From Lepidostoma basale (taxonomy: Eukaryota > Arthropoda > Insecta > Trichoptera > Lepidostomatidae), in assembly GCA_022606425.2 (NCBI GenBank), contig JAHDVF020001034.1, forward strand, positions 744,001 to 808,000: a DNA stretch of 64,000 nt. The letters are read 5' to 3'. Shown here in pieces: positions 4,733-63,072 of the stretch (its first letter is position 1; every line of letters begins with the position of its first letter). The notes under the pieces were generated by a model, which saw only the letters and a program-made list of their open reading frames with translations, had not been told where the DNA came from and did not search any database. Position numbers and translations under genes: made by a program.

Positions 4733-5035
4733 TTGTCTGAAAAACTATGATACTTCAATATTCTTAGGAGAGAAATTATAAAACTTTGTTTATATATCAC
4801 AATTTTCATATTTTTTATTTTTATTTTTGCGTCAGCTGTTTCGTCAACCTATGTTGACATTATGTGGTGTAATAATGTAAAATTTTACACATTTTTCAAA
4901 GAATTCATTATTGTAACACCTGATGATGTCAACATAGGTTAACGAAACAGCTATCACAAAAATAAAATAAAAAAAATTAGGATACATAAACATAGTTTTA
5001 TAATTTAATAGTTAATTAGAATACAGTATTAAATG
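4733..5035 (+). repeat. HH1 fold-back element with hammerhead cores
   Basis: Two inverted arms: the left arm (minus strand, about 4733-4875) and the right arm (plus strand, about 4880-5035) both carry GTCAACATAGG followed by a GTTGAC-like half-stem, GAAAC and an AGCTG-type stem III. The centre contains GGTGTAATAATG facing CATTATTGTAACACC. The left terminus shares CCATTGTTTTG and AGTATCATAGT-type sequence (reverse complement) with 51440-51480, 55270-55310 and 62310-62345. Confidence 0.7.
4920..4955 (+). ncRNA. Hammerhead ribozyme core, HH1 family
   Basis: The site has CTGATGA (4920-4926), a stem II of GTCAAC and GTTAAC around an ATAG loop, then GAAAC and the stem III/cleavage segment AGCTATC. 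The minus-strand sister at 4831-4860 has a perfect GTCAAC/GTTGAC stem II but lacks CTGATGA. Stem III is the palindrome ACAGCTGT in better copies; here one base differs, so activity is doubtful. Confidence 0.65.
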
Positions 5036-5059
5036 AATATATAAAAAGAAAATGCAGTG

Positions 5060-5650
5060 CGAATGAAAGTAATATGAACAGAATAATGAAGGGACATTAA
5101 GTTGATTCGATCACATGGATAGGTATAATGAATGAAAAAAAAATAGTAAAAAAAGTTTATGTTAACGATGTATACAGAAAAAGAATAGACCGAGACGAGA
5201 GAGAAAACGTAGCACGATCAAATCAATCAAACATTTAATGTCGGTCGTGAGAAACGTGAGACGACCTTCGTGGCAGAGTGGTTACGAGCTCTGACTTCCA
5301 TGCCGAAGGTCCTGGGTTCGATTCCCGGCGATGGCAGTGTGATTGTCACACTGTCTTTGGTCTGGTGTAGAATTCACGTGACAGTAAAATGGCGATAGAT
5401 TGGCTACCTATCACATGTCACGAGAATCAATATAATAGCTAAAAAATAAAAAAATGTGTACAGTAATTTGGTCGAAACGACCTGTTGCGTATATAAATAA
5501 TTTTTTTTTTTTTTAAATTGAAGAAATCGACGTGCGTACATGACACGATGAATGAACGAAGAGGAAACGAGAGAAGTATGTCAGAATAGAATAGTGTGGC
5601 GGTCTATTATTTGTGCCAACCGCTTCAGGCAGACGGCGTGATGGTTATTA
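5060..5650 (+). mobile_element. RTE-A copy split by SINE1
   Basis: The left part (5060-5262) encodes the decayed VMNRIMKG, KKVYVNDV and RPRRERKRST region. The right part (5517-5650) continues with RRACMTR-like codons, the cysteine-rich end, and GACGGCGTGATGG. A SINE1 copy lies between them, so the SINE is younger. The tail is short (GTTATTAAC). Confidence 0.8.
5263..5515 (+). repeat. SINE1, full-length copy inside RTE-A
   Basis: tRNA-like head with A box TGGCAGAGTGG and a perfect B box GGTTCGATTCC, spaced as in tRNA. Then an unrelated body (CACTGTCTTTGGTCTGG, ATGGCGATAGATTGG, ACATGTCACGAGAATC) and a 3' end related to ATTTGGTCGAAACGACCTG. It terminates in a T-rich stretch. The tRNA of origin is uncertain (serine- or alanine-like head). 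Confidence 0.92.
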
Positions 5651-6125
5651 ACTCTGGAACCACTTTTGAAGTGGAAAAGAAAATTACATTTTTGTACATC
5701 GCTGTCTCTGACTGTACCGGCGTTTCCGCTAACTCCACTCTTTGCATACTTCGCATCTCGACTAGATACATCACACCGTTCACACCTCCCCTCCCGGGAG
5801 GTCCGGAGGTGTTGGGGGGCTGTGAAAATGGCGGGAAGAAAGGGGAAGGCGGGAGGGGAGACATTTCCGGAAGTGGCGCTGAAGACGGTGATCGTCATCA
5901 TCATCAGTGAGTCCTGTTTCCCCTCTCCGCAGCGCGTTACTCGTGCGTCGTTTAGACTGATATCCATAATGTTTATGTGGTAGATGGTGAAATATAATGT
6001 TCTGTGTAACATTATGTTTTATCGGTATTATGCAGATAAAAAGTTTTGTCAAATGTATGAATTTATTTCTTATATATTCGCAATAATTTGTGTTGCCGAT
6101 TCATTAAACAATGTTTTTAAATTTT
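5651..6125. other. Unassigned, includes G+C-rich island 5760-5930
   Basis: 5760-5930 contains CTCCCCTCCCGGGAGG and GGGAGGGGAGACATTTCC, far richer in G+C than the surroundings. Open frames on both strands are overlapping shadows (proline/glycine-rich) without motifs. It may be a host regulatory or exonic island; I cannot assign it. Confidence 0.4.
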
Positions 6126-6128
6126 GAA

Positions 6129-6296
6129 AACAACACAATTTTTTTTAATTAATTGAAATAGAAACATGTTTCGGACACAGAAGCCCATCATCACTATTAT
6201 ACAAAACACTGGTGAAGAGCTTCTGTGTCCGAAACATGTTTGAATTTCAATTAATTTGGAATTAATTTTTTTTTTAAATAAAATTTGTGTTGTTAC
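6129..6296. repeat. Palindromic fold-back element with GAAACATGTT ends
   Basis: Two arms, each containing GGACACAGAAGC and GAAACATGTTT, face each other around a centre at about 6205. The outer arms pair as CAACACAAT against ATTTGTGTTG. The arm ends GAAAC plus ATGTT resemble the 3' half of a hammerhead core, but no intact CTGANGA is present (GTGATGA on one arm, GGTGAAGA on the other). Confidence 0.7.
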
Positions 6297-6379
6297 AAAG
6301 TTTAAAAAACAATGTATGAATTTATGCTTCTAATTATTGTCTTTTTTATATGTAAATAGATAAATTAATGTTCATGTGT

Positions 6380-6620
6380 TCAATATCGACGTCTTTCGTA
6401 TTCGTGAAAGATGTTCAGAAGACAAATACTCTTGACTTAGAAGAGTATTATGTATTCCTAATGTTGAACCATCTCTCATGCGTTCCTGGTATTATATATT
6501 TTTTATGTTTTACCTGTTCTCAATAGATGCCTAAAACTATAACAACTGTCGTTTGTAATATCTGTTGAGAAAATGAACTGGTTTGATTTGATTTTTGATT
6601 TGATTCAAATATATTAATAA
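6380..6620 (+). mobile_element. Jockey-like 3' UTR fragment
   Basis: It matches the reverse complement of 43180-43350, the 3' UTR of the Jockey-like copy there: the words ACAAATACTCTTGACTTA, a TATTATGTATTCCTAATGT-type stretch, and CTCAATAGATGCC. It ends in a TTTGATT-rich tail. A third copy is at 24410-24595. No coding part is retained. Confidence 0.7.
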
Positions 6621-6784
6621 AAATGTAGAAATGAATTTAAATTTACAATTAAGAAAGGAGTTTTCTGGATATAAAATATTAAAGACCCTCGATAAGATTA
6701 TAATAAGAGCCTGTGAAGTGGTTTTATTTTCTACTTTTAAGATACAGATTTTATAAAAAGTATTCCTGATACTAATTCAAACAA

Positions 6785-7232
6785 ATGATAAAATTATCCG
6801 ATCCTTATGTGTGGAAGCTAAGCATAGAACTGTCAAAAGAAGGATAAAAGAGAATAGATGAAGTAGGAATAAGATTTCTTAGACTAATATGTGAAAATAT
6901 CTGTATAATAGAGTATCGAATGAAAGTTTTATGAATAAAATAATGAATGGAGTATTAAGATGGTTTTGACACATGGAAAGAATAAATGAAGAAAGAATGG
7001 TAAAAAAATGATATGATAACGATGTAATGGAAGTAGAAATAGAGGAAGACTGCGGAAAACGTGGCCACGTGTGGAGTCAGAGTCTAAAGAATCGATGTAA
7101 GTGCGTGACACGCTATATGAATGTTGAGGAATGTTGAGAAGTACGAGTATGTCAGGATAGAAATATGTGGCAGTCCATTATTTCATGCCTACCGTTTGGA
7201 GAAACGGCATGATGGTTAGTTAGTTAGTTATA
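6785..7232 (+). mobile_element. RTE-A fragment, degenerate
   Basis: It begins at the LMYGSEAW-equivalent (TTATGTGTGGAAGCTAAG). It runs through RMVKK- and RGRL-type codons with many indels and ends GAAACGGCATGATGG plus three to four TTAG units. It is non-functional. Confidence 0.8.
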
Positions 7233-7765
7233 AAATATTCAAAACTTATTTAAAATGTATTTTTATTTCAATAATCACTTCATACGAGTACATAGTAAAT
7301 TATGTATTATTTTTTTAATTTATACACTTATTTCTGTAGATATGTTTTAGTTATCTATTATATTAAAAAAATATATAAATTTTGTGGTCCGAGTGTTCAC
7401 TTGAAGTTGCAAGTATCATCTAAAATAATTACATCTTTTCATTATTTGAATTGATCTATGGTTATCAAAATAACGTGTCTCGTAATTATAAAAATGATTC
7501 ACCACATTTATATACAGTAAAAAAGGTTTTTATAAGTATTATGAGATAAGTGACAAAAAACCAACAAGAACATTTCTACTTTTAATTATGGAATAATTAT
7601 TTGATGACCTAACTTCAGTGGCGTCGCATAAATACTTTGTTATAACTTAAAAATTTTAATCCATCATAGAACTCTTTCAGGAAAACTTGAAATATAAATA
7701 TTATCTCCAAGCTTCCGATAATTAAGTTGAATTGAAATTTTGTCACAAAACCAATTGCAATAAAA
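7233..7765. other. Unassigned AT-rich spacer
   Basis: I see no motif-bearing frame, inverted repeat of note or recognised repeat. Confidence 0.4.
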
Positions 7766-7768
7766 TAT

Positions 7769-8491: not shown

Positions 8492-8509
8492 ATTTAAATT
8501 TAGTGGCAG

Positions 8510-8795: not shown

Positions 8796-9515
8796 TATAA
8801 TTAAAAGATTTGCACTGTATTGTCACATGATCATATTGAACAGGTTTTAGATAGAACAATACTTTATATTAAATATTATAATTGTCTTTATCGATTTAAT
8901 AATCATAAAACTATATACAGAGTTGGTGTCTTTTCCACGCCACAGAATCCAAATGTAAGCGTAGACTCATCACAAACGCACCAGAGTCGTACCGGCACTC
9001 CACGATAAGTACTTTTATAATACAAAAGGAACTTTAAAGTTTTGATTGAGTTGGTACTTGCTTCTTGCCACCCATAAGCAGAGGACATTTCGTAGAAACT
9101 TACAAATGATCGAAGTGACTCACTCGATGATTAGATCATTCCTGGGAAGTTGCTGTGAGTAAATTGAGAAATAAAAAAATGCACGTTATAGACATTACGA
9201 GTACTTTGAACGTTAAATTTTTACTGTTTGTTTCTCATTATGTCTAATACAATAAAACGGATATGTACTTTACGATTAGTACAAAAAATGACAGGAAACG
9301 AAATTCAAAAATTATAATATATTACCACAGAGATTCTCAACGAGCTCAGATTGTGATTGCTTGCAATGTATCAATATTGCATAAAATCATTCACGTCAAA
9401 ATCAAGAGCCTACATTTGACGAAATTTTGACAATTTTCGTATGAAGCATTCACTTTATGACTAGACATTTTCAATTTTTTTATTTATTTGTTTTTAAAAT
9501 AAAATAAAATAAAAA
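8796..9515. other. Unassigned AT-rich region
   Basis: Short opposing frames at 8820-9088 lack motifs. I see no repeats shared with the rest of the window. Confidence 0.4.
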
Positions 9516-9519
9516 ACAC

Positions 9520-9660
9520 TGTACTTTGTTTTTCACCACAATGCGGTTATTTTAATTGCCGACTAGTTTCGTTTGTACAAGCAAAACTAATCGGCAATTA
9601 AAATAACCGCATGGTGGTGTAAAACAAAGTGCAGTGTTTTTATTTAATTTTATTTTAAAT
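9520..9660. repeat. Palindromic fold-back with GAAACTAGTC half-core
   Basis: Two long complementary arms run from CACTGTACTTTG to its mirror CAAAGTGCAGTG, with GCGGTTATTTTAATTGCC facing GGCAATTAAAATAACCGC. At the apex the minus strand reads GAAACTAGTC. This is the 3' half of a hammerhead core with a palindromic stem III ACTAGT, as in the 18230-18261 site. CTGANGA is lost. Confidence 0.75.
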
Positions 9661-10185
9661 ACAAAAAATAATAAAAAATATTTTTTGACGAACTACTAGA
9701 ATACAGAACATGTGAAGCCTTTCTGTTTTCGCACACAGTTACGAGAGTGCAACGTAAATAGTTGTGTGATGCTGCTCTAACTTTCCAAACGATAGAACCT
9801 GATTAACAATTGTCACACTCCTACACATACGTAAAGATTGTGAGTGAAACAGACCTATTTTCAATAATCTTTATACTTCATTTGACACACAAGACGCGTT
9901 TGATTGTATTCGTGTTATTAACGAAAGTATGTGTAAACACTTTAGTATTTATTTGTAATAATTAAACTATTTCAATCTATGCGTAAATGTATAAGTAAGG
10001 AATGCCGAAAATCTTAACCCATCATTTATTTTATTTATTGAGGTATTAAAGTTATCAGAAATGATGCCAACTGAACTAAGTGAAATATCTAAGGATTAGT
10101 TAATTAGGAAAAGAATTATATTTAAAAATACATGTTGATATCAAATAGCAGATACATCACGAACTTAAAATCTTCTTAGAACCTT
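9661..10185. other. Unassigned AT-rich region
   Basis: No recognisable coding or repeat content. Confidence 0.4.
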
Positions 10186-10500: not shown

Positions 10501-10609
10501 ATTAAATATTAGTAAAGCAAAACATAAATTAAAATATTAAATAAAATAATAATACACTTTTAGTAATTTGTATTAACACTACTTTTACTACACTTTACAA
10601 AGTAACACC

Positions 10610-10641
10610 AACCGGTTTCGCTCCCGTCGGAGCTTCGTCGT
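10610..10641 (-). ncRNA. Hammerhead-like core, HH2 left arm
   Basis: The minus strand reads ACGACGA in place of CTGACGA, then stem II GCTCC/GGAGC around a GACG loop, GAAAC and CGGTT. The conserved C3-U4 pair of bases is changed, so this copy is probably inactive. Confidence 0.6.
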
Positions 10642-10798
10642 GGGGGAATGACAAAGCTCCGACGAAATGACTCACCGTCTTAACAGTCTATTCGTCCTCG
10701 CGCCCACTTTCTCCTAGTACCACTCTTTCTCCCTTCAACTTTATATATATTTCTTCATGGGTTGTTCTCTGATTTTATATTTAGTTTACTCTCTCACC

Positions 10799-10830
10799 AT
10801 GACGAAGCTCCGGCGGGAGCGAAACCGGTT
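10799..10830 (+). ncRNA. Hammerhead-like core, HH2 right arm
   Basis: ATGACGA (first C changed), stem II GCTCC/GGAGC with loop GGCG, GAAAC, palindromic stem III ACCGGT, cleavage-site triplet GTT. The flanks CACC (before) and GGTG (after) can form a 4-bp stem I. It is one substitution away from consensus. Confidence 0.68.
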
Positions 10831-11066
10831 GGTGTTACCAAATAAAGTGGTGTTAATACAAATTACTTAAAATGTTTTATTATTTTATTTAATAATGTCA
10901 CACCACAAATTAAGTGCTTCATACGAAAAATTATAATATTATTGATGGTTGCGGTTTTAATTTGGTAAAATTCCATTATACTCGTATAATTAATATATTA
11001 CGAAAGCGTGATTGTTTTCTCGGTTTTACATTGATTTATTTATATTTAAAAATATATTTATAATAG

Positions 11067-16440: not shown

Positions 16441-16532
16441 AATGTTACACCAACAAAAATTTTCTATACTAAATTATTCATTTTTTTATGAATTAAAACT
16501 CCGTTTCTTCCACTTTTGAGTTTATTTTTCGC

Positions 16533-16566
16533 GACATTTTTCGAAGACTTAGCCCTTCATCATCGG
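16533..16566 (-). ncRNA. Hammerhead-like core, HH4 left arm
   Basis: Minus strand: CCGATGA, stem II GAAG/CTTC, then GAAAA and ATGTC. The core deviates at U4 and in GAAAC; probably decayed. Confidence 0.5.
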
Positions 16567-16599
16567 GAGAACGATATAGACCAGGTTTATATCGCTCTC

Positions 16600-16633
16600 C
16601 CGATGATGAAAGTGTAAGCTTTCGAAACATGTC
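16600..16633 (+). ncRNA. Hammerhead-like core, HH4 right arm
   Basis: CCGATGA (U4 changed to C), stem II GAAAG/CTTTC around TGTAAG, then GAAAC and ATGTC with palindromic stem III ACATGT. Relative to the copy at 36407 the stem II pair G-C is replaced by A-T on both sides, a compensatory change. Confidence 0.65.
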
Positions 16634-16744
16634 GACAAAAATAAATCATACGTAAAAACCGTGTTGGAAATTCATAAAAAAATATTAATTATGGAATTCC
16701 ACAAGTTTATCTAAAAATAAATTATTGGCCTATTTGAGTGTATA

Positions 16745-17001
16745 AAACATACTATTATTATTATTTTGTTGAATCGTTCTTTACATCATGACAGCATGAG
16801 TCAAATCTATGTTAAGGGTATTAAAGCTATCATATTGATTCTCGTGACGTGTGATAGCTAGCTAATCTATCGCCATTTTATTCTCACGTGAATTCTACAC
16901 CAGACCAAAGACAGCGTGACAATCACACTGCCTTGCCGGGAATTGAACCCGGAACCTTCGGGGTGGCAGTCAATGCACTTACCACTCGACCACGAAGGTC
17001 G
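16745..17001 (-). repeat. SINE1, variant 3' tail (ATT-rich)
   Basis: Minus strand: head ACCTTCGTGGTCGAGTGGT with B box GGTTCAATTCCC and the shared SINE1 body. The 3' end differs from the A-tailed form: CATGCTGTCATGATGTAAAG, then a run of ATT-type repeats. The same tail occurs at 20583 and 32515. Confidence 0.85.
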
Positions 17002-17789: not shown

Positions 17790-17960
17790 GAATGAAAACG
17801 CCTGTTTTCTAGAAGTTTTATTATAATTTATGGGAATGGCCTCGCCGTTCTAAAGCATTATCAAATATTACATTATAAACATTTGATAATGCTATAAACA
17901 GACGACACATATCATTTCCATAAATTAAAATAAAACCGCTAGAAAACAGACGTTTTGACA
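17790..17960. repeat. HH3 palindromic element, degenerate core
   Basis: Outer arms GTTTTCTAGAAGTTTTATTA and its complement face each other. The inner palindrome TTTGATAATGCTATAAACAG corresponds to the hammerhead-like block seen intact at 40666-40696, but GAAACATGTC has decayed to GACACATATC. Confidence 0.75.
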
Positions 17961-18229: not shown

Positions 18230-18261
18230 AACTAGTTTCGCTTATACCCAAGCTTCATCGT
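18230..18261 (-). ncRNA. Hammerhead-like core with ACTAGT stem III
   Basis: Minus strand: ACGATGA in place of CTGATGA, stem II GCTT/AAGC around GGGTAT, GAAAC, then TAGTT making palindromic stem III ACTAGT. The first two core bases differ from consensus. Confidence 0.55.
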
Positions 18262-18349
18262 GGATATATAAAAACTATAATTACAATTGTAATTGCAATA
18301 CCGTGGTTAATATTAAGTGTTTATTGTTACTTCAATCAATTTAACTAAA

Positions 18350-18770
18350 TAACTTACTTACTAACCAACACGCCGTCTCCCCGAAGGGGTAGGCAGAAAG
18401 AATGGACTGCCACACTTTTCTTTCCTGACATATTTCTCTCGATTCCTCAACATTCATACATCGTGTCATGCACGCGCTTCGATTTCTCTGACTCCTCACA
18501 TGGCCGACATTCAATATTTGATTTATTTGATCATGCCACGTTTTACTTGATCTTCCTCTATTTCTGGTTCCATTTACATCGTTAACATATAATTTTTTTA
18601 CCATTCTTTCTTCATTCATTCTTTCCATATGTCCAGACTATCTTAATGTTCCTTTCATTATTTTGGTCATAACACCATCATTCGCACCGCATTCACTTCT
18701 TATATTTTCATTTGACACTCTATCATACACAGAGTATCCACACATTCGTCTAAGAGATCTCATAAGATCA
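18350..18770 (-). mobile_element. RTE-A copy, 5'-truncated
   Basis: The minus-strand frame 18341-18628 keeps MERMNEERMVKKLYVNDVNG, RGRSSKTWHDQINQILNVGH, CMNVEESREICQERK and SAYPFGETA. Upstream (to 18770) the RMCG / SLRWFGHM region is present with a frame break at 18640. The tail at the left is TAAG/TAAC-type. Confidence 0.88.
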
Positions 18771-23298: not shown

Positions 23299-23540
23299 TT
23301 TTTTTTTTGTATACAACAGGTCGTCTGAACCCAATTACTGCATACACTTTCTTTTTTTTTAGCTATTATATTAATAATTCACATGACATGTGGTAGGTAG
23401 CCAATCTATCACCATTTTATTGTCACGTGAATTCTACACCAGACCAAAGACAGTGTGACAATCACACTGCCATCGCCGGGAATCGAACCCGAGACCTTCG
23501 GAATGGAAGTCAGAGCTCTTACCACTCTGCCACGAAGGTG
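23299..23540 (-). repeat. SINE1, nearly complete
   Basis: Minus strand: head CACCTTCGTGGCAGAGTGG, B box GGTTCGATTCCC, full body, 3' end CAGTAATTGGGTTCAGACG and a poly-A tail (T run at 23300-23308). Confidence 0.92.
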
Positions 23541-25360: not shown

Positions 25361-25619
25361 ACTTTGGGAATTAATTTAACATTGTTTAGACCTCTTTTTT
25401 AATAAATAAAAATTTTAAAATACGCGACATGTTTCAGAGGATACCTCCATCATCTTCAGGTGTAAAAAATATAACAAAAACTAAACAAAGAAAGACTAAT
25501 AAAAAACGCATTTAAAATTCGATACAAAAATTCAAATTTAAAAATTAAGTTCAGCTATTTCTTATAAGTAGGTACTAACAATTATTTTTTAACAGTAAAA
25601 TAATAAATAACATTAAATA
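25361..25619 (-). mobile_element. HH5 hammerhead element inserted in repeat Z, with TSD
   Basis: The 259-bp insert is flanked by a 12-bp duplication ATATATACAACT at 25349-25360 and 25620-25631. On the minus strand it starts with TATTTAATGTTATTTA. It carries AAATGCGTTTTTTATTAGTC and TTCTTTGTTTAGTTTTTG (shared with 29480-29520, 47920-47950 and 51210-51245), then the hammerhead core, and ends about 65 bp further. The boundaries come from comparison with empty copies of Z. Confidence 0.85.
25426..25459 (-). ncRNA. Hammerhead core, HH5 family
   Basis: Minus strand: CTGAAGA, stem II GAGG/CCTC around TAT, GAAAC and ATGTC with palindromic stem III ACATGT; cleavage triplet GTC. Stem II is closed by weak or unpaired bases (TGATG on the left, T on the right), so activity is uncertain. 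All catalytic-core bases are present. Confidence 0.72.
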
Positions 25620-26760: not shown

Positions 26761-26894
26761 TTCGTATTAATTGTTTAATTTGGGATTTTACATCATTTTT
26801 CAAGAAACAATAAACAATAAATTTGATTTGTCTTTTTTATATACTTTGTGTACACTCGTACAACATTAACTTTTTTTAAATAAACTAAATATCA

Positions 26895-26926
26895 GACATG
26901 TTCCGGACAACCCGGTCCTTCCTCAG
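26895..26926 (-). ncRNA. Hammerhead-like core, HH8
   Basis: Minus strand: CTGAGGA, stem II GGAC/GTCC around CGGGTT, then GGAAC (consensus GAAAC) and ATGTC. Palindromic stem III ACATGT is kept. One core base is changed. Confidence 0.62.
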
Positions 26927-28340: not shown

Positions 28341-28497
28341 TTAGTTTCTTCCAGTTTTGACCTATTTCAGCAGCTCGCTGCTATCTTCCAGTTATAAAAT
28401 TAATGCTCATATTGTTCATGTTGCCATTAATGCTGTGCTATTAATGTTGACATCAATGCCTAATTATTAAAGTTGATTTTAATGATATTACGTGATG

Positions 28498-29179: not shown

Positions 29180-29675
29180 TAATTAATAATCAGATTCCTC
29201 CTTTTGCTCCCTTCTCCTTAAATATTTTGTCTACATTTAATCTCCTAAGCTCTCATTCCCAATCAAATGCAAATTAATCATTTTAAATTTCTATATAAAT
29301 TATGTATTTTCAAATGTATGTTTTTTCTAAAATACAATTTTTTATATACTTTTAATATTTTATTGGAATATATTATAATTATTTAATATAATTTATTAGT
29401 TATTTCTTAAAAAAAGATATTTCAGTACTTATAACAAATAGGCCAGATATATTTTTAAATTTAATTATTGTATCGAATTTTAAATGCGTTTTTATATTAG
29501 TCTTTCTTTGTTTAGTTTTCATTATATTTTTACACCTGAAGATGGAGGTATCCTCTGAAACATTTGTATATTTTGTGGATTAAATAAGTTTATTTTTATA
29601 TTTTGTGGATTAAACAAGTTATTTTCAATTTCCAAAATATATTACTATGGAATTCCACAGTGTTAATGCCTTAGC
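29180..29675 (+). repeat. HH5 hammerhead element, long form
   Basis: ~430 bp shared in inverted orientation with 47840-48300: GATTCCTCCTTTTGCTCCC, CTCATTCCCAATCAAATGC, AAATGCGTTTTTATATTAGTC. It is followed by a hammerhead-like core at 29536 and the module ATTACTATGGAATTCCACAG at 29641-29660. Confidence 0.75.
29536..29566 (+). ncRNA. Hammerhead-like core, HH5, decayed 3' end
   Basis: CTGAAGA, stem II GAGG/CCTC, GAAAC are intact, but ATGTC has become ATTTG, so the cleavage triplet and stem III are broken. Confidence 0.6.
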
Positions 29676-30639: not shown

Positions 30640-30850
30640 TTTCTAAAATAAATTTCTTGGTAGAAGTTCATTTTAAAAACTGAAAAGAAAAAAAAATCAT
30701 ACATTTTTTTTTATTATTATATATTTAGTGTGCTTCCATTTGTGTTTATCGTCGACCGGTTTCGGCAGCTTTCTGCCATCTTCTGGTCGACGATAAACAC
30801 AAGTGGAAGCACACTAAATATATAATAATAATAATAAATTGTATATATAT
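30640..30850. repeat. HH6 fold-back element
   Basis: Arms TATTTAGTGTGCTTCCATTT, GTGTTTATCGTCGACC and their complements meet around the hammerhead-like core. The left flank carries ATTTCTTGGTAGAAGTTCAT, found reversed after the other HH6 copy at 42020-42045. Arms are ~45 bp and near-perfect, so the copy is young. Confidence 0.85.
30754..30785 (-). ncRNA. Hammerhead-like core, HH6
   Basis: Minus strand: CAGAAGA (U4 changed to A), stem II GGCAG/CTGCC with AAAG loop, GAAAC, palindromic stem III ACCGGT, cleavage triplet GTC. Flanks GTGTTTATCGTC and GACGATAAACAC form a 12-bp stem I, the clearest stem I in the window. Confidence 0.7.
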
Positions 30851-31290
30851 TTTTTTTGTTTTCACTAATTATCATTCATATTAATGTAAAGTTTAACTTT
30901 CATAACATTTTTTTTATGTGTTTGGGTTAGTTCTTCTAGATTCTTTATTCATTTGCGAATATTAACCGAGATGATAATGTATGTCCATAATTAACACGTT
31001 ACAATGTTCTTGAGTTGTCTTTTTTATATTTTGTCTCTTAATTTAGTCGTATTTCAACGTCCGTCACTGTGACAGTGGTAATGATTCTCTTCAATGGGCA
31101 CAAGTCATTGGATTTTCAATGAAATTTTAAAAACAGGTTACGCAATGATACTTAACTGAGACTTAAGTAGAAGAGTATTATTGAGACTTTTTAAAATTTG
31201 GTATTCGTTGGATTAAAAAACAATTGAATAAATGGAAATTGTGACACTACTGGATTTTGGTAAAACAAATATATTTAAATATATTATATT
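30851..31290. other. Unassigned AT-rich region
   Basis: No recognised feature. Confidence 0.4.
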
Positions 31291-32693: not shown

Positions 32694-33053
32694 AAAACTA
32701 ACTAACTAACTAACTAACCATCACGCCGTCTCCCCGAAGAGGTAGGCAGAAAGAATGGACTGCCACACCTTTCTTTCCTGACATATTTCTCTCGCTTCCT
32801 CAACATTCATACATCGTGTCATGCACGCGCGTCGATTTCTCTGACTCCTCACATGGCCGACGTTCAATATTTGATTTATTTGATCGTGCCACGTTTTCCT
32901 CGGTCTTCCTCTATTTCTGGTACCATTTACATCATTAACATATAATTTTTTTACCATTCTTTCTTCATTCATTCTTTCCATATGTCCAAACCATCTTAAT
33001 GATCCTTTCATTATTTTGTTCATGACACCATCATTCGCACCGATTATTTATTA
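32694..33053 (-). mobile_element. RTE-A copy inserted in mariner, with 12-bp TSD
   Basis: Flanked by TTTAGATTTGTA at 32682-32693 and 33054-33065. It carries the (TTAG)n tail at the left and an open frame 32721-33023: MNKIMKGSLRWFGHMERMNE, KKLYVNDVNG, RGRPRKTWHDQINQILNVGH, CMNVEEAREICQERK, AYLFGETA. The uninterrupted frame and perfect duplication indicate recent insertion. Confidence 0.95.
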
Positions 33054-35574: not shown

Positions 35575-35676
35575 TAACATAATCATGAAATGAAAAATCT
35601 ATACAATGGGACTACCCATTGTATAGATTTTTCATTTCATGATTATGTTATACAATGGGACTACCCATTGTATAAC
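35575..35676. repeat. Perfect 36-bp-arm palindrome with duplicated apex
   Basis: 35575-35610 and 35615-35650 are exact reverse complements with a 4-base loop ACTA. The apex (TACAATGGG, ACTA, CCCATTGTA) is then repeated at 35647-35676 as a second, smaller hairpin. Confidence 0.93.
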
Positions 35677-36406: not shown

Positions 36407-36440
36407 CCGATGATGAAGGTGTAAGCCTTCGAAACATGTC
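36407..36440 (+). ncRNA. Hammerhead-like core, HH4, best copy
   Basis: CCGATGA (U4 to C), perfect stem II GAAGG/CCTTC around TGTAAG, GAAAC, ATGTC with palindromic stem III ACATGT. The module CATTATGGAATTCCACAG follows at 36497. The C at U4 is shared with both arms of the 16533-16633 copy, so it is a family feature, not a random mutation. Confidence 0.68.
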
Positions 36441-38281: not shown

Positions 38282-38313
38282 AACCGGTTTCGCTCCCGCT
38301 GGAGCTTCGTCAG
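38282..38313 (-). ncRNA. Hammerhead ribozyme core, HH2, full consensus
   Basis: Minus strand: CTGACGA exactly, stem II GCTCC/GGAGC with loop AGCG, GAAAC, CGGTT making stem III ACCGGT and triplet GTT (a permitted NUH site). All conserved core bases are present. Stem I flanks (CACC before, GATG after) pair poorly in isolation. Confidence 0.8.
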
Positions 38314-40239: not shown

Positions 40240-40435
40240 GTGGTTTGACATATTTAAATATTGAATTCAACACTTTGTATGAAACCACATAATTTTGAGT
40301 AAGGAGCTTCATCAGAGTATACACAAACTGTTTGTGTCAGTTTGTATATAGCCCTGATGAAGCTCTTTACAAAGTGAAACCGGTTAGCGCTCTTTACTCA
40401 AAATAATGTTGTTTATACAAAGTGTTTAATTATTT
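40240..40435. repeat. HH2-like fold-back element
   Basis: Arms CACTTTGTATGAAAC, CATAATTTTGAGTAA and their mirror copies TACTCAAAATAATG, TTTATACAAAGTG surround a loop near 40325. Both arms carry CTGATGA plus AGCTC. Only the plus arm keeps GAAACCGGTT; the minus arm has lost about 26 bp at that point. Confidence 0.8.
40354..40385 (+). ncRNA. Hammerhead-like core with weak stem II
   Basis: CTGATGA, then AGCTCTTTACAAAGT (only CTTT/AAAG can pair), GAAAC, CGGTT with stem III ACCGGT. Core bases are intact, but stem II pairing is shifted from the usual position. Confidence 0.62.
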
Positions 40436-40665
40436 TTTTAGAAACTGTTAAACTTTGTTTTTTCCTTTGTTATGAAGAGAGAAATTGTTAATATTTATTT
40501 TATTTATATAAATATATCGCTTCTTTAAGAATGATGTAAAACTCCATATTTTGTAATTAATACGAATGAATATGTTTGCATATGTTTGCTAGAAGTTTTT
40601 TTATATTTTATGTGAATGACACGCTTTGTCGGTCAAAAACATTGTCAAATGTCAACACCTTATAT

Positions 40666-40696
40666 TTGATAATGCCATAGACAGGCGAAACATGTC
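40666..40696 (+). ncRNA. Hammerhead-like core, HH3
   Basis: TTGATAA (consensus CTGANGA), stem II GCC/GGC around ATAGACA, GAAAC and ATGTC with palindromic stem III ACATGT. The first base and G8 are changed, so probably inactive; the architecture is clear. Confidence 0.58.
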
Positions 40697-40719
40697 ATTC
40701 GCATAAAATATAATAAAAC

Positions 40720-40969
40720 TTTTTTTTTTTTTTTTTTATGTACACAACAGGTCGTTTGGACCCAATTACTGTATACAATTTTTATTTTTAGCTATTATAT
40801 TGATTCTCGTGACATGCGATAGGTAGCCAATCTATCGCCATTTTATTGTCACGTGAATTCTACACCAGACCAAAGACAGTGTGACAATCACACTGCCATC
40901 GCCGGGAATCGAACCCAGGACCTTCGGCATGGAAGTTAGAGCTCGTAACCACTCTGCCACGAAGGTCGT
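40720..40969 (-). repeat. SINE1, full-length, inside HH3
   Basis: Minus strand: GACGACCTTCGTGGCAGAG, B-box region GGTTCGATTCCC, complete body, 3' end GTAATTGGGTCCAAACGACC and poly-A (T run 40720-40737). Among the least diverged SINE1 copies here. Confidence 0.93.
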
Positions 40970-41575: not shown

Positions 41576-41871
41576 TAATTGTATTTTTCTACTTAAATGT
41601 AAGTATATGTTATTTTATATATCTCGTTTTTTTTCATTCCTTTTTGATTTTCCCTATAAAATACTCAATTATATCCAAATGTTTAGGCAAAATGTTGTAT
41701 GATTGATTATAATTTATTTTCTATATCACGATAATGAAATTTAAATATTTTTAGATAAAATTAAGGCATACACTGTGGAATTTCATAATAACGATTTATT
41801 AATGAATCAAAACAATGTTTTTTTTTCTTTATTATTTTGTATTTAGTGTGCTTCCACTTGTGTTTATGTTC

Positions 41872-41903
41872 GACCGATTTCGGCAACTTGCTGTCATCGT
41901 CTG
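41872..41903 (-). ncRNA. Hammerhead-like core, HH6 left arm
   Basis: Minus strand: CAGACGA, stem II GACAGCAAGTTGCC (partly paired), GAAAT, CGGTC. Two core positions differ from consensus. Confidence 0.52.
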
Positions 41904-41909
41904 GTTCAC

Positions 41910-41941
41910 CCGACGATGGCAGCAAGCTGCAGAAACCGGTC
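41910..41941 (+). ncRNA. Hammerhead-like core, HH6 right arm
   Basis: CCGACGA, stem II GCAGC/GCTGC, GAAAC, CGGTC with stem III ACCGGT and triplet GTC. U4 is C. The mirror arms give a long stem I (GTGTTTATGTTCGA facing TCGAACATAAACAC). Confidence 0.62.
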
Positions 41942-42050
41942 GAACATAAACACAAGTGGAAGCACACTAAATACATAATAAAAAAATTGTAAAAAAATAT
42001 TTTTTTTTGTTTCATTATTTAAATGAACTTCTACCAAGAAATTTCAATTA

Positions 42051-44690: not shown

Positions 44691-45304
44691 TATTTTATAA
44701 ATTTGTAAATCGCATATTTTTCTAACGTTTTGTGTATGTCCTTACTTTGTATTGAAGCAAGTAGCTTGGATAGGCCGATAATTTAAAGCCGTAAACAGAT
44801 ACATAAATGTATTACATAAGAAATGATAAAACCATGCTGTTTCTTCAATTCCAATCCAATTCCAACTTCTATAACCATTAATTTCTATTATTTCAGATCA
44901 ATTTGTTATCAAGTATACTTAATTTAAGCAACGCTCGATAGTTGACTCCCACGTTTTGCACAAAAACAATTTAAAATGACATCATGCACATCGAACCACG
45001 TAACATACCTCCGAGTAAGAGGTAATAACCACGATACCGTGTTCCATTCGACGATAGCAAGCTGACAATATCGCGGATTGTTCGTAAATTCCTATTCGTA
45101 CGACTTTCTAAAAAGGTTTGAAAATAAACAATACAATGTAAAAATTCTTAGGTCACATGTCAGAACTTATCAGGGACCCCAATCGCTGGTTTTCTGTGTG
45201 CGAGTAAGTACCTACTCGATTCCTCAACATGTTTAATCTACACGTGAATGCGTATACTCTGTTTATTTCGAAATGTGCAACTATCTTCTTAACTAAAATT
45301 AACT
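44691..45304. other. Unassigned
   Basis: 44930-45080 (CGAACCACGTAACATACC, GTTCCATTCGACGATAGC) is less AT-rich; no motif or repeat is seen. Confidence 0.4.
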
Positions 45305-45372
45305 AACATTTGCGAAATGTATACTTATATCTGTATACGTATACAGATATAAGTATACATTTCGCAAATGTT
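45305..45372. repeat. Perfect 68-bp palindrome without spacer
   Basis: 45305-45338 is the exact reverse complement of 45339-45372; the centre is TATAC/GTATA. No target duplication or known element flanks it. Confidence 0.95.
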
Positions 45373-45411
45373 TGTAAATGTTCTGGTCAATTCTTTGGCG
45401 TATAAAATAGG

Positions 45412-46075: not shown

Positions 46076-46082
46076 TTTACAC

Positions 46083-46440
46083 TAACTTACCCTCACGCCG
46101 TCTCCCCGAAGGGTTAGGCAGAAAGAATGGACTGCCACACTTTTCTTTCCTGACATATTTCTCTCGCTTCCTCAACATTCATACATCGTGTCATGCACGC
46201 GCGTCGATTTCTATGACTCCTCACATGGCCGACATTAATTATTTGATTTATTTGATCGTGCCACGTTTTCCTCGGTCTTGCTCTATTTCTGGTTCCATTT
46301 ACATCGTTAACATATAATTTTGTTTACCATTCTTTCTTCATTCATTATTTCCATGTGTCCAAACCATCTTAATGATCCTTTCATTATTTTGTTCATAACA
46401 CTATCATTCGCACCGCATTCACTTTTTACTTTTTAATATT
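46083..46440 (-). mobile_element. RTE-A copy
   Basis: Minus strand: SECGANDSVMNKIMKGSLRW, FGHMEIMNEERMV, a one-base change after it, then KLYVNDVNGTRNRARPRKTW, MSAMxx-type NVGHVRS, CMNVEEAREICQERKVWQSI, AYPFGETA-like end with TAAG tail. 5' end at ~46440 abuts the next inverted copy. Confidence 0.87.
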
Positions 46441-46457: not shown

Positions 46458-46770
46458 TGATCTTCGTGGCAGAGTGGAAAGAGCTTTGACTGATGGTATT
46501 TGAAATAATGGTAAAAAAAGTATATCTTAACGATGTAAATGGAATTAGAAATAGAGGTAGATCGAGGAAAACGTGGCACGATCAAATAAATCAATTGTTG
46601 AATGTCGGCCACGTGTGGAGTCAGAGAAATCGACGCGCAAGCATTACACGATGTACGAATTTTGAGGAAACGAGAGAAATATGTCAGGAAAGAAAAGTGT
46701 GGCAGTCCATTCTTTCTGCCTACCCCTTTGGGGAGACGACGTGATGGTTAGTTAGTTAGTTAGTTTTTGG
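46458..46770 (+). mobile_element. SINE1 head fused to RTE-A 3' end
   Basis: 46458-46495 reads TGATGATCTTCGTGGCAGAG, TGGAAAGAGC, the SINE1 A-box head. It is followed directly by RTE-A from MVKKVYLNDVNGIRNRGRSR onward to SAYPFGETT and a (TTAG)n tail. The coding frame 46493-46744 (83 residues) is open. The head was either copied as a chimera or is a pre-existing fragment. Confidence 0.8.
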
Positions 46771-47839: not shown

Positions 47840-48304
47840 TTTAATTTAAAAAATATTAAAATCCACGACATGTTTCGGAGGATACTTCCATCTGCAGGTG
47901 TAAAAATATAACAAAAACTAAACAAAGAAAGACTAATAAAAAACGCATTTAAAATTCGATACAATAATTCAAATTTAAAAATTAACCTGGGCTATTTGTT
48001 ATAAGTAGGTACTAACTTTTTTTTTTTAACATTAATAAATAATAAATAATATTAAATATAATAATTCAGGACGATAATATAATTTAGAAAAAATTGTTAT
48101 TTAGAAAAAACATACATTTGAAAATACATAATTTATATAGAAATTAATAAATGATTAATTTGCATTTGATTGGGAATGGGAGGTTGGGAGTTGAATGTAG
48201 ACAAAGTATTCAAGGAGAAAGGAGTAAAAGGAGGAATAGATTATTAATTATATTTTCACCCTTAGTATATTACTATGGAATTCCACAATGTTAATGCCTT
48301 AACT
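47840..48304 (-). repeat. HH5 hammerhead element, long form
   Basis: Shares CTCCCATTCCCAATCAAAT, AAATGCGTTTTTTATTAGTC and TTCTTTGTTTAGTTTTTG (minus strand) with 29180-29540. The hammerhead is near the 3' end (47867). The module TACTATGGAATTCCACAATG lies on the plus strand at the other end (48271-48290). Confidence 0.78.
47867..47897 (-). ncRNA. Hammerhead-like core, HH5
   Basis: Minus strand: CTGCAGA (A6 changed), stem II GGAAG/CCTCC (one mismatch) around TAT, GAAAC, ATGTC with stem III ACATGT. Stem II closes better here than at 25426. Confidence 0.6.
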
Positions 48305-48645
48305 TTCAAGTGTAAATAATTATTTAAAAGTAGATCACCAAATATAAAAATAACATTAAAAAACGATACATAGAAAATTTTGTTTTGTGTTAGCGTGATT
48401 TCACTTTTCACGAACTGCACTGTGCTAAAATGATAGGACGTCTCGTAATGCCTTGGAAATAAAACCTCTACCGATATGACACTACACGGCTGCTTGAACC
48501 TTTATGGGGCAAAGTCAGTTCCTACGCTGGTAAGTGCTTCTTTGTAAGCTGATCTTGCGAGTGAAAGATACACACTGATAACAAATTATTTCTTTACTGC
48601 CATAATGTCATCCGTTCTATTTTCAGAATGTAACTCAAGTATTAT
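48305..48645. other. Unassigned
   Basis: 48400-48560 is less AT-rich; no motif or repeat is recognised. Confidence 0.4.
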
Positions 48646-51125: not shown

Positions 51126-51330
51126 AAAATATATTATTATTTAAAGCAATTATTCCAGGTTATTTTTTAAATCCAAATATGTTGTTCCTTTGTATTGTGT
51201 CAATTTTTAAAGGCGTTTTAATAAGTCTTTCTCTGTTTAGTTTTTTTGTTATATATTAACACCTGAAGATTGAGGTCTGCTTCGAATCATGTCGTGATAT
51301 TTTATTGAATAATTAACAACGTTAATTTTC
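51126..51330 (+). repeat. HH5 hammerhead element, degenerate
   Basis: AGGCGTTTTAATAAGTCTTT and CTCTGTTTAGTTTTTTTG precede the core at 51263. Confidence 0.65.
51263..51293 (+). ncRNA. Hammerhead-like core, HH5, decayed
   Basis: CTGAAGA, weak stem II (GAGG against CTTC), GAATC in place of GAAAC, ATGTC kept. Probably inactive. Confidence 0.5.
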
Positions 51331-54574: not shown

Positions 54575-54735
54575 TTTCTATCTTAAACTGTTAAATTATA
54601 TAAGTTTGTTTTTGTTTCACAATTGTATTTTATTTTACATTTGAGAAATTATTGTAACACCTGATGATGTCAACAAAGGTTGATGAACCAGCTGTCACGT
54701 AGAATAAAATACGATTGTGATACAAAAACAAAGTT
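54575..54735 (+). repeat. HH1 element
   Basis: GAAATTATTGTAACACCTGA leads into the core, followed by AGAATAAAATACGATTGTGA, as in the 4880-4990 arm. Confidence 0.6.
54661..54696 (+). ncRNA. Hammerhead-like core, HH1, decayed
   Basis: CTGATGA, stem II GTCAAC/GTTGAT, GAACC in place of GAAAC, AGCTGTC kept. Two positions differ from a working core. Confidence 0.55.
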
Positions 54736-54739
54736 ATTT

Positions 54740-55243
54740 AATTTCTTCTTGTTCTTCTTCTACCTCAGCCTATTCCCGTCCACTCATGGACATAGGCCTC
54801 CTCCATTTGCTTCCATATCATTTTGTCCTGTGCAGACTGCATCCAGTTTTTTCCGACGTGTCTGCTTAGATCATCCTTCCACCGTAGTTGCGGTCGCCCT
54901 GCACTTCTCTTCGCGGTCCACGGTCTCCAAGTCAGCAGTCTTCTTGTCCACTTTTCATCTGAGCTTCTGGCTACGTGACCTGCCATTTTAGAGTCGCCAC
55001 CCGGTGGATGACGTCAGTGACCTTTGTTTTTTCTCGCACCGTATCGTTTCTGTCTCTGTCTCTTAGGATTATTCCTAACATGGCTCTTTCCATGGCTCTT
55101 TGGGTCACTCGTAGTTTCTCGGTACTTTGTTTGGACAATGTAACAGTTTCAAGACCATAAGTACCAACTGGCAGAACGCAGGCTTCATAGACTTTTCGTT
55201 TCAGGTTGATCGGTACTTTCCGGTTTTTAAGGATGTAACTCAT
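54740..55243 (-). mobile_element. RTE-D (BovB-like) fragment, one frameshift
   Basis: Minus strand frame 1 (54971-55243): LKRKVYEACVLPVGTYGLET, TEKLRVTQRAMERAMLGIIL, TKVTDVIHRVATLKWQ. After a shift, frame 2 (54765-54986): AGHVARSSDEKWTRRLLTWR, PWTAKRSAGRPQLRWKDDLS, EEAYVHEWTGIG, then an AAG tail. This is the classic end of RTE/BovB-type ORFs. The join of frames is at ~54980. Confidence 0.92.
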
Positions 55244-55254: not shown

Positions 55255-55480
55255 CTTATTAATTTAACAGTAAAGATGTTAAGGTATAATAGTGTTTCGA
55301 CCAAAACAATGGACTTTTATATTTTTCTATTATTTAGATCATTTATACGAATGAAAACGTCAGTTTTCTAGAAGTTTTATTATATTTTATGGGAATGACA
55401 TGTTTGCATTTCTAAGGCATTTCAAATTGATAAAATATAATAAAACTTCTAGAAACTGACGTTTTCATTCGTATTAATTA
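55255..55480. repeat. HH1-type terminus plus HH3 palindrome
   Basis: 55285-55315 carries GTGTTTCGACCAAAACAATG, the HH1 end. 55330-55475 is an HH3 palindrome (GAAAACGTCAGTTTTCTAGA facing TCTAGAAACTGACGTTTTC) whose centre with the hammerhead is deleted. Confidence 0.78.
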
Positions 55481-55516
55481 TTAAATATGGAGTTTAAGAT
55501 CATTGTTCAAGAAACA

Positions 55517-59380: not shown

Positions 59381-59384
59381 TAAA

Positions 59385-60205: not shown

Positions 60206-60715
60206 GAATCCAATTAATTAAGTAATACGTGACGACTGTTCACAAATATATTTTACGTAATCTTCGATTCTACGTGCATACTTTTGTTCGTTTGTTTTTT
60301 TACAAGGTTTAAATGTATTTTCAAAGTACACGCATGATTCCGGTTTAATGCTTTTATTTATTAACACCTTCCACTTGTTATTTCAAATTAAATGGCAAAT
60401 ATTGATTGATAACTGAGGATTATTTGATCAGGGGTGTATTATTTGTTAAGGTCTATTTATTTCCAATATTTCTATTATTATTTGATGGTTTGAACCTTAT
60501 ATGTACTCGTATATAAAGGAGTAAGCTTATAACAGTGTCACCAGTCTGTCGATCCCAACTAGCCTGGCGAAACCGGAAGATATTGAAAAAAAAGATAATA
60601 TTTGGAAGAAGTTAATAAAAAAACTTCGTTTGATTTTATTATTACTTTAAATGAACTTTCATTAAAAGATTTAAATAATATCATTAGATTGCCATTAATT
60701 TAGATAATATGTTAT
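60206..60715. other. Unassigned
   Basis: 60535-60580 (CAACTAGCCTGGCGAAACCG) is a trace of a GCGAAACCGG hammerhead-like 3' half without the 5' half. The rest is AT-rich. Confidence 0.35.
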
Positions 60716-60716
60716 T

Positions 60717-61200
60717 AACTGACTAACTAACCATCACGCCGTCTGTCCGAAGGGGCAGACAGCCTCTACACTGTGATTTGCTGGCATACTTACAATCGCT
60801 TTCTCAAGATTCATACATCGTGCCATGCACGCCCGTCGATATCTCTGACTCTTCACATTGCCGACATTTAAGATTTGATCGATTTGATCGTGCCATGTTT
60901 TCCTCGGTCTTCCACTATTTCTAGTTCCATTTGCGTCGATAACATATAATTTCTTCGCTATTATTTATTCATTCATTCGTTCCATGTGTCCAAACCATCT
61001 TATTGTATATATCTTATTGACCCTTTCATTATTCTGTTCATGACACTTTCACTCGCACACTGTTCACTTCTTACATTTCATCAATATTACACATCCGTCT
61101 AAGATATCTCATTTCTACTCCATTTCTTACTCTCATTATTTTTTTACCAGCTCCACGCTTCACTTTGATACATAAGCGTTGGCACAAGAACACCACAACA
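60717..61200 (-). mobile_element. RTE-A copy, degenerate
   Basis: Minus strand: VLVPTLMYQSEAWSW, RDxSVxEQCASESVMNRIMK, NAMVWTHGTNE-like block in broken frames, VIDANGTRNSGRPRKTWHDQ, INQILNVGNVKSQRYRRACM, then CGGACAGACGGCGTGATGG and TTAG. Multiple indels. Confidence 0.83.
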
Positions 61201-62190
61201 CATCAATAGATACGATTAAAAGGTTTAATAATAGATATGTCAAATCCTCTTTGTTATAAATTGAAATTTCTTAATAGAAGTTCAATATTATTTTATTATA
61301 TGAGTTAAGTTTTATTCTACTATATAAAAAAAACGTTTTTGTTTATTTTCAATAATTGTTTAAATAATACACCCCTGATCAAAAGATTCTCAATGATCAA
61401 CCATTATTTGCCATTTTATTTTAAATAAATATAGTATGCGAAAGTAGTTAATAAAAAACCTCGTTTTATTTCATATTTTTTTTAATTAATTCTTCTAGGA
61501 CATCTTCTTCATGGACTTAAAATATATAACAAGTTTTATTTATTTTAATTTTTAAGCTCTGTTGGTAAAACAATGATCTTAAATGAGGCGTATTTTTTTT
61601 AATACGGTCATGTTTAATTAATAAGGTTTTAATTAAGTAAGTGATTTCCCCTAATGAACACTGATATATCATGAACTCGTCATAATAAACAGTACTCATT
61701 GGGTTTTTTATTCAAACAGACGGACGATCATTTAAGCTATGTAATGCTAACTTCATCATTTGTTACGCACGAGTCGAGGAAACGTCTAAGACATTAACTT
61801 CTTGAATTATTAATCTAAATAAACATTACATGGCAGGTGTGATGATAGCATATATGAGTAAAAGTAGAATATATGGAGTAGAAATGAGATCTCTCCGAAA
61901 TTTATTTAAATATTTTTTATTTACTGTAAAAATATAAAACGCTGTTAATGGTATCATAATTTTTTATTATTTGTGACAGATTTTCCATACTGAATTTTAG
62001 CTATGACTAATCACACTAATGAGTTTTTTGCCCTATAAATAGTAACTAACCGTTTTTTTAATAAACGGTACTTAGGAACCTACCTAACTTAACGCTAGAA
62101 AGAACTTCAAAATGCCTTTAAAATGGACAATTTTACATTGGAACAAATGCACATAAAGGTTCGAAAATTCACGAAAATTAATTTTAACAA
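61201..62190. other. Mostly unassigned; tiny RTE-A piece 61845-61905
   Basis: ATGAGTAAAAGTAGAATATA, TGGAGTAGAAATGAGATCTC at 61853-61893 matches ESRINAVEMRSL of RTE-A. The other sequence shows no feature. Confidence 0.5.
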
Positions 62191-62194
62191 TTGA

Positions 62195-62345
62195 AAAAAA
62201 ACACCTGATAATGTCAACATTGGTTGACGAAACAGCTGTCACGAAAAATAAAAAAGTAATAAAAAAAATGTGACCATAAACATAGTTTTATATCTTAACA
62301 GTTAATAATGTTTAAGTGTCAGAGTGTTTCGGCCAAAACAATGGA
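62195..62345 (+). repeat. HH1 element with terminus
   Basis: Core at 62205 followed by AAACATAGTTTTATATCTTA and GTGTTTCGGCCAAAACAATG, the same order as the reversed left arm of 4733-4875. Confidence 0.75.
62205..62240 (+). ncRNA. Hammerhead-like core, HH1
   Basis: CTGATAA (G8 changed to A), perfect stem II GTCAAC/GTTGAC with ATTG loop, GAAAC, AGCTGTC with palindromic stem III ACAGCTGT and triplet GTC. One core change. Confidence 0.68.
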
Positions 62346-62527
62346 CTCTTTTTATATTGGGTATAAATTGTAAACTAAAATAACATTATGTAACGTTTCA
62401 AGATAAGAATGAACTTTTTTTCGTTTCTCTTAAGCTTCTTATGAATAAAGTTTCTTGTGTTATCGAGAAGAGTATCTGTAAAATATCACTTAATTCTTTT
62501 CAACGAAACTGGTTTGTTTTTGTAACC

Positions 62528-62557
62528 CTGACAAAGTTACGAAAGAAGTGAAACCGG
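62528..62557 (+). ncRNA. Hammerhead-like core, HH2-like, decayed
   Basis: CTGACAA, poorly paired stem II, GAAAC and CGGTG. Similar to 40354 (AAGTGAAACCGGT). The module AATGCCACACCACAAATTTA follows at 62621-62640. Confidence 0.5.
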
Positions 62558-62664
62558 TGGTTTGATCAAACAAAATGATATGTAAAAACAATTTACACGA
62601 GTGTTATATATTTATTTAATAATGCCACACCACAAATTTAATGCTAATTAAAAAATATTATTTA

Positions 62665-62935
62665 ATTAACTAACCATCACGCCGTTTCTCCGAACGGAAA
62701 GTCAGAAAGAATGGACCGCCACACTGTTCTTACCTTGCATACTTCTATCGATTCCTCAATATTAATACATTGTTTCATGCACGAACATAATTCCGTTTAC
62801 ATTATTAAAATATAATTTTTACCATTCTTTCTTTATTAATTCTTTTCATGTGTCCAAACCAGTTTAATGATTCTTTAATTATTTTGTTCATAACACTTTC
62901 ATTCACACCACACTCACTTCTTATATTTAAAAAAA
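62665..62935 (-). mobile_element. RTE-A copy, internally deleted
   Basis: Minus strand: SECGVNESVMNKIIKESLNW, FGHMKRINKERMVK, then VNGIMFVHETMY (RPRKTW..RRAC deleted), then the AxPFGETA-like end and TTAG tail. Confidence 0.83.
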
Positions 62936-62946
62936 TATTGTAACAC

Positions 62947-62981
62947 CTGATGATGCCAACGTCGGTTGGCGAAACATCTGT
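62947..62981 (+). ncRNA. Hammerhead-like core, HH1 variant with covarying stem II
   Basis: CTGATGA, stem II GCCAAC/GTTGGC with GTCG loop, GAAAC, then ATCTGTG. Core bases and stem II are perfect. The cleavage triplet is GTG instead of GTC, so cleavage is doubtful. The module AATGCCATACCACATAAGTG follows at 63047. Confidence 0.68.
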
Positions 62982-63072
62982 GGCGAATACTAAAAAGTGT
63001 AGTATAATTGCGTTTTAAATTTTAACATCTAATAAATTATTTTAATAATGCCATACCACATAAGTGCTTAAT

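Follow-up and report, generated by a model that had tools for sequence, protein, structure and literature searches.

A 64,000-nucleotide (nt) stretch of the genome of the trichopteran insect Lepidostoma basale (contig JAHDVF020001034.1, positions 744,001 to 808,000 of the forward strand; hereafter the window, ~34% GC by base counts over its whole length) carries short motifs resembling hammerhead ribozymes, which raises the question of whether these motifs are real, what kind of element brought them there and whether they serve for cutting. A first-pass annotation, made from the sequence alone, had listed about eighteen such sites in at least six families and had related them to the minimal type I hammerheads of Penelope-like elements (PLEs) and to small retrozymes. 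The motif and its division into families proved real, and the count rose to 23 loci with a total of 30 hammerhead-like arms, which fall into eight families (A to H). Beyond what that annotation had described, we observed seven fold-backs with two divergent hammerheads, a loop-free palindromic stem III and tails common to several families. In our judgement the sites are probably minimal, dimer-type (helix-III-less) type I hammerheads lying in short, old insertions of the PLE kind.

The core layout consists of CTGANGA, one extra base, stem II, GAAAC and a short palindrome, followed mostly by GTC or GTT. Using a descriptor that tolerated at most one core mismatch, permitted the extra base and specified an NUH tail, we obtained 14 matches at a score of at least 4 (mean of 40 dinucleotide shuffles 2.1, maximum 6), 10 at a score of at least 5 (1.15, maximum 5), four at a score of at least 7 (0.15, maximum 1) and three at a score of at least 8 (none in the shuffles). 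Ten of the 14 matches at a score of at least 4 were accepted; those at 7124, 12643, 3209 and 27518 were judged to be chance. A strict descriptor lacking the extra base gave no match in the window, because the scored arms carry an extra base before stem II, and was dropped as too strict. Exact copies of GAAACATGT number eight against 1.03 in shuffled sequence (maximum 4, ~8-fold enrichment) and those of GAAACCGGT seven against 0.28 (maximum 2, ~25-fold; 60 shuffles each). The presence of the hammerhead motif in the window, above chance, is confirmed. Several accepted arms are badly decayed, their acceptance leaning on family resemblance; cores and stem II were scored on 22 arms and stem I on 23. 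Read directly, the six cores that had been singled out as best are all present with their parts in the order described. The 23 loci are as follows.

4773-5006: palindromic element A1, divergent arms A1L 4831-4866 (minus) and A1R 4920-4955 (plus).
6147-6256: palindromic element F1, arms F1L 6163-6194 (minus) and F1R 6212-6240 (plus).
10535-10894: element E1, divergent arms E1L 10610-10641 (minus) and E1R 10799-10830 (plus), 153 nt between aligned arms; right tail ATGTCACACCAC 90 nt from hammerhead position A9.
16472-16690: palindromic element C1, arms C1L 16533-16566 (minus) and C1R 16600-16633 (plus), U4C.
17795-17956: palindromic element G2, decayed core 17883-17913 (plus).
18230-18261, minus: core E5, found by model R1 (below) only; stem III ACTAGT, a palindrome two changes from ACCGGT.
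25426-25459, minus: core B1, with core, stem II, palindrome and base 17 intact and four nt, not one, before stem II.
26895-26926, minus: core H1, CTGAGGA-A-GGAC..GTCC-GGAACATGTC, first 6 positions of stem I paired.
28359-28390, minus: decayed core D3, found by R1 only (27.2 bits).
29536-29568, plus: core B2 in an element of ~0.5 kb, tail ATGGAATTCCAC 105 nt from A9.
30681-30864: palindromic element D1, single hammerhead 30754-30785 (minus), U4A.
36407-36440, plus: core C2, U4C, first 5 positions of stem I paired, tail ATGGAATTCCAC at 87 nt.
38282-38313, minus: core E2, the best-kept arm, retaining CTGACGA, GAAAC, stem II, palindrome and base 17 (GUU), with one extra A.
40264-40431: palindromic element E3, decayed divergent arms 40284-40315 (minus) and 40354-40385 (plus).
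40593-40721: palindromic element G1, arms 40618-40648 (minus) and 40666-40696 (plus), C3U and G8A in both.
41800-42017: palindromic element D2, arms 41872-41903 (minus) and 41910-41941 (plus), unlike tails ATGAAATTCCAC and ATGAACTTCTAC.
47867-48306, minus: element B4, core 47867-47897 (minus), inverted ~40-nt tail copy at the other end (~48267-48306).
51263-51293, plus: core B3, stem II with 3 of 5 pairs.
54593-54744: palindromic element A2, one recognisable hammerhead 54661-54696 (plus).
55331-55487: palindromic element G3, decayed core 55397-55425 (minus).
61917-62308: element A3 with inverted outer arms, core 62205-62240 (plus), G8A.
62528-62559, plus: decayed core E4, tail ATGCCACACCAC at 88 nt.
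62947-62982, plus: core A4, CTGATGA intact, base 17 a disallowed G, tail ATGCCATACCAC at 95 nt.

Pairing in stem II provides the clearest structural signal. Its strands pair at 103 of 109 positions over the 22 scored arms, against 300 of 638 (47%) when strands are swapped between families, and the sequence differs both between and within families (GTCAAC/GTTGAC and GCCAAC/GTTGGC; GAAAG/CTTTC and GAAGG/CCTTC). Since stem II varies in sequence while remaining paired, it is pairing and not sequence that is conserved. The signal in stem I is modest, with 54 of 92 of its first four positions paired (23 arms) compared to 1.38 of 4 in the cross-family control. All 22 scored arms have one or more extra bases between CTGANGA and stem II, a T in most and four bases in B1; the extra base is A in families E and H and T in families A-D, F and G, where it creates the string CTGANG-ATG in most arms. 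De la Pena and Flores, in 2001, reportedly described a viroid hammerhead whose core holds an additional nucleotide. The core at 38282-38313, which the first-pass annotation had called a full consensus, does have CTGACGA and GAAAC but departs from that consensus by its extra A before stem II. Among the 18 arms with an ATG that were read, the frame it opens runs for 2-23 codons, and for 3 codons in family C. The family D arms D1, D2R and D2L (30754-30785, 41872-41941) remain open for 20-21 codons and encode similar peptides which, judging from their sequence, may be remnants of the start of a PLE-type open reading frame (ORF).

Stem III consists of a loop-free palindrome, namely ACATGT in families B, C, F and G, ACCGGT in D and E, ACTAGT in E5 and ACAGCTGT in A; that of family H is GGAACATGTC, where ACATGT can be read one base further on. 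The exact palindrome is kept in 12 of the 22 scored arms. A hairpin requires a longer loop than such a stem permits; the helix could therefore close only between two RNAs.

The setting of the motifs is equally distinctive. In agreement with the fold-back context proposed earlier, 12 of the 23 loci fall inside palindromic spans, of which 19 were kept out of 30 found, covering 4.9% of the window; the other 11 loci are not palindromic. Two recognisable arms on opposite strands are present at seven loci (A1, C1, D2, E1, E3, F1 and G1), and in all seven the arms are divergent, with their 5′ ends toward the centre. Over the six of these loci that were compared, the two arms differ by 7-28% (ungapped), and the fold-backs therefore look old and unlikely to be assembly artefacts. 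The predicted folds of transcripts from five fold-backs were long hairpins in either direction, with energies between -57 and -157 kcal/mol, and such folding of a read-through transcript should mask the ribozyme. Palindromes of this kind could also be fold-back DNA transposons resembling miniature inverted-repeat transposable elements, moved by a transposase and carrying arms captured from a hammerhead-bearing PLE. The palindromic position of 12 loci, the inverted ~40-nt tail copy at the other end of B4, the terminal sequences common to several families and the presence of palindromes devoid of a hammerhead (9475-9676, 35575-35650 and 45295-45382) all fit this explanation, which we nonetheless hold to be improbable, given that the two arms of D2, and likewise those of E1, end differently, that 11 loci are not palindromic and that no target-site duplication of fixed length was seen. 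No Pfam transposase was found in the 21 ORFs of at least 120 amino acids scanned, although non-autonomous copies would have none.

A further feature is common to several families and may link them to PLEs. The tail ATGGAATTCCAC occurs in B2, C1R and C2 and was grouped with ATGAAATTCCAC of D2L, and the tail AATAATGYCAYACCAC occurs in A4, E1R and E4, in each case 85-111 nt from A9. Altogether, 10 of the 30 arms have an ATG..CCAC-like tail within 170 nt downstream, nine of them at 85-111 nt. The extra base with its ATG, the palindromic stem III and the shared 3′ tails match the minimal, dimer-type hammerheads of PLEs. Such minimal type I hammerheads were reportedly described by Cervera and De la Pena in 2014 and by Lunse et al. 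in 2017. The resemblance extends to the order CTGANGA, stem II, GAAAC, to a near-absent helix III suggesting action as a dimer and to dispersal in non-coding animal DNA, whereas the window differs in having no PLE ORF, many divergent fold-back pairs, an extra A in families E and H and mostly broken cores. Dispersed minimal type I hammerheads are reported to occur by the thousands in many metazoan genomes (PMC7761336).

PAc, a Poseidon PLE of Anolis, offers the closest comparison. According to the published work (PMC11167929), its ORF starts at stem II and is cut 26 bp past the start codon, reverse transcription starts 111-118 bp into the ORF (AC-rich stem loop), both target strands are cut and extended, a dimer was modelled with AlphaFold2, and mutants of the hammerhead core leave insertion in vitro unaffected. 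The start codon likewise lies at the start of stem II in the window, with a predicted cut ~28 nt further on in family C against 26 in PAc and a 3′ tail ~85-111 nt downstream against a reverse transcription start at 111-118; unlike PAc, the frames opened by the ATG span 2-23 codons and encode no ORF. In the account of Penelope elements of the rotifer Adineta vaga (PMC3846280), head-to-head inverted repeats with palindromic junctions are read as self-priming on an antisense template. The inverted pLTR pairs of that animal share with our loci the head-to-head arrangement and the palindromic junctions, and differ by the ORFs and the 8-10 bp target-site duplications of several copies, neither of which is seen here; the words hammerhead and ribozyme do not occur in the main text of that paper.

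The layout and the palindromes are observations; what follows on the enzyme, on pairing inside cells and on the insertion itself is inference. A PLE reverse transcriptase supplied in trans would have copied hammerhead RNAs, copying beginning inside the 3′ tail, ~85-110 nt past A9. By cutting and extending both target strands, the enzyme would often have joined two RNAs at their 5′ ends, thereby leaving a fold-back with opposite hammerheads. Two RNAs could join by base pairing of their palindromic stem III, with cleavage taking place in the dimer, and a read-through transcript of the genomic fold-back would form one long hairpin with its ribozyme masked. Some families would have spread with a core already broken. 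The self-priming described for Adineta is an alternative to priming on two strands, and our results do not discriminate between them.

The state of the cores bears on whether cleavage was required. CTGANGA is unchanged in eight of the 22 scored arms, and only two of these, E2 (38282-38313) and B1 (25426-25459), combine it with an intact stem II, an exact palindrome and an allowed base 17, B1 with four bases before stem II; the remaining six each lose some other part. Among the six cores singled out earlier, those at 38282 and 25426 are kept, while 36407 carries U4C, 30754 U4A, 62205 G8A and 62947 a G at position 17. All three cores of family C, at both of its loci, carry U4C; C3U is common to all three loci of family G, with G8A in three of its four arms. 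U4C, C3U and G8A are changes expected to break the ribozyme. At C3 and G8, activity was lost with other substitutions in the PAc study (PMC11167929). Core-breaking changes common to all C and G loci imply either that the master copy was already dead when amplified or that cleavage was not needed, and families C and G may, as their sequences suggest, have spread with no need for it. Most copies look dead, and since most cores are degenerate, the window does not demonstrate a working ribozyme population. A bolder proposal, which we put forward as rather unlikely, is that the divergent pairs are footprints of a single insertion complex in which two RNAs paired through stem III, both strands were primed and the 5′ ends were joined, the hammerhead being kept partly as a handle for dimerisation or loading. 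Such a handle would explain families C and G, in which all loci have a broken core yet retain stem II and, in a number of arms, the palindrome.

The first-pass annotation had also invoked retrozymes, and this half of its interpretation found no support. Animal retrozymes are small, non-autonomous elements with type I hammerheads, arranged as direct tandem repeats and spreading via circular RNA from paired hammerheads; the repeats are reported to be of 150-450 bp and low GC (PMC7229834), the helices have canonical sizes with loop contacts, and circular RNA was shown. The elements of the window are comparably non-coding, AT-rich, hammerhead-bearing and ~0.2-0.5 kb long. Nevertheless, a retrozyme origin seems very improbable, as the window shows no array of direct tandem repeats with a unit of 150-450 bp (the longest period listed is 40), close pairs are inverted rather than direct, stem III is minimal, and the cores at 62205 and 62947, on the same strand and 742 nt apart, are separated by the 3′-end sequence of a long interspersed nuclear element (LINE). 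The other half fared better: minimal type I hammerheads of the PLE kind, in small non-coding repeats and diversified into families, are supported, leaving the earlier interpretation as a whole partly supported.

A covariance model (R1) for which only families D and E supplied the six training arms recovered arms of held-out families above or near the noise, with C1R at E = 0.003, A4 at 0.0067, C2 at 0.023, A3R at 0.099 and F1L at 0.11. It also recovered D and E arms outside the training set, namely D3 (28359) at 2e-6, E3R (40354) at 1.7e-4, E5 (18230) at 3e-4 and E4 (62528) at 0.0034, D3 and E5 being first revealed by this model. In five other contigs (46 kb) its top score was 10.4 bits (E = 0.21). 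Sites given by the T-type pattern in L001 and L003, among five viral contigs, were taken as chance, R1 scoring at most 10.4 bits in all five.

Several results weigh against a PLE origin, or against the hammerhead assignment itself. Held-out recovery by R1 was partial: B1, A2R, A1R, C1L, B4, F1R, G1R, H1 and B2 scored E values of 0.7-4, among chance matches, and A1L, B3, G1L, G2R, G3 and E3L were not listed at E of at most 10. The Rfam models, whose sensitivity to known Penelope hammerheads was not gauged, gave no hammerhead family at E of at most 10, whether over the whole window or in three shorter segments that include 38282, 36407 and 26895. In homodimer cofolds, only A3R, out of seven cases, formed the stem III duplex while retaining stem II in both partners; the other six preferred different pairings. 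Similarity between arms is not clearly higher inside an element than from one element to another, and pair formation at insertion therefore cannot be shown. Flanking matches of 7-10 nt at 12 of 19 spans are mostly AT-rich and have no control, so that no clear target-site duplication emerges. The tail pattern was set after viewing the data, and chance alone would be expected to place it within 170 nt of ~3 of the 30 arms; the families, moreover, are related. Finally, a Pfam scan of all 21 ORFs of at least 120 amino acids found no PLE reverse transcriptase and no GIY-YIG domain. At its extreme, this line of doubt would make the sites chance matches in AT-rich, palindrome-rich DNA, an explanation to which the failure of Rfam to find a hammerhead and the overlap of weak arms with the shuffle and R1 chance ranges lend something, but which we find scarcely credible in view of the excess over shuffles, the cross-family stem II control and the held-out R1 model. 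Of the two outcomes named beforehand as telling against the motif, covariance scores at background were indeed obtained with Rfam, whereas an excess over dinucleotide shuffles was found and some held-out families rose above background in R1.

As to the coding content of the window, the first-pass annotation had seen no encoded reverse transcriptase; no Penelope-type enzyme was present in the 21 ORFs, but one of them gave a reverse transcriptase match (RVT_1), which is a LINE 3′ fragment. The largest reverse transcriptase fragment (311-1189) has metagenome proteins as its closest relatives (59-69%), the closest named proteins covering it are from moths (55-56% identity), and its named relatives are mostly lepidopteran. 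The body of B4 has stops in all three frames. A 300-nt LINE 3′-end repeat is present in nine copies (286-585, 18343-18642, 32696-32995 and others), several ending in (GTTA)n, and two inverted LINE 3′ ends (46081-46336 and 46502-46756) lie 165 nt apart and are 89% alike. A tRNA-derived repeat resembling a short interspersed nuclear element was noted at 16903, 20885, 23443, 33755 and 40869, and 23468-23539 (minus) passes the Rfam tRNA threshold. The palindromes at 45295-45382 and 35575-35650 are near-perfect (93% and 95% self-complementary), show no hammerhead and look younger than the hammerhead fold-backs; that at 9475-9676 (89%) has no clear hammerhead, and its outer left flank (9434-9474, minus) resembles an A/E-type tail. 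Sequences downstream of E3 (40530-40573) and of H1 (26761-26797) resemble the flank of G elements, inverted, and may reflect nested or target-directed insertion.

Divergent hammerhead pairs and core-dead families found no description in the literature searched, which covers few subscription papers. The absence of all these hammerhead sites from the output of the Rfam models is a warning in itself. With many divergent pairs, and with families that seem to have multiplied after losing catalytic bases, the question of whether the motif serves for cutting or for RNA pairing becomes testable.

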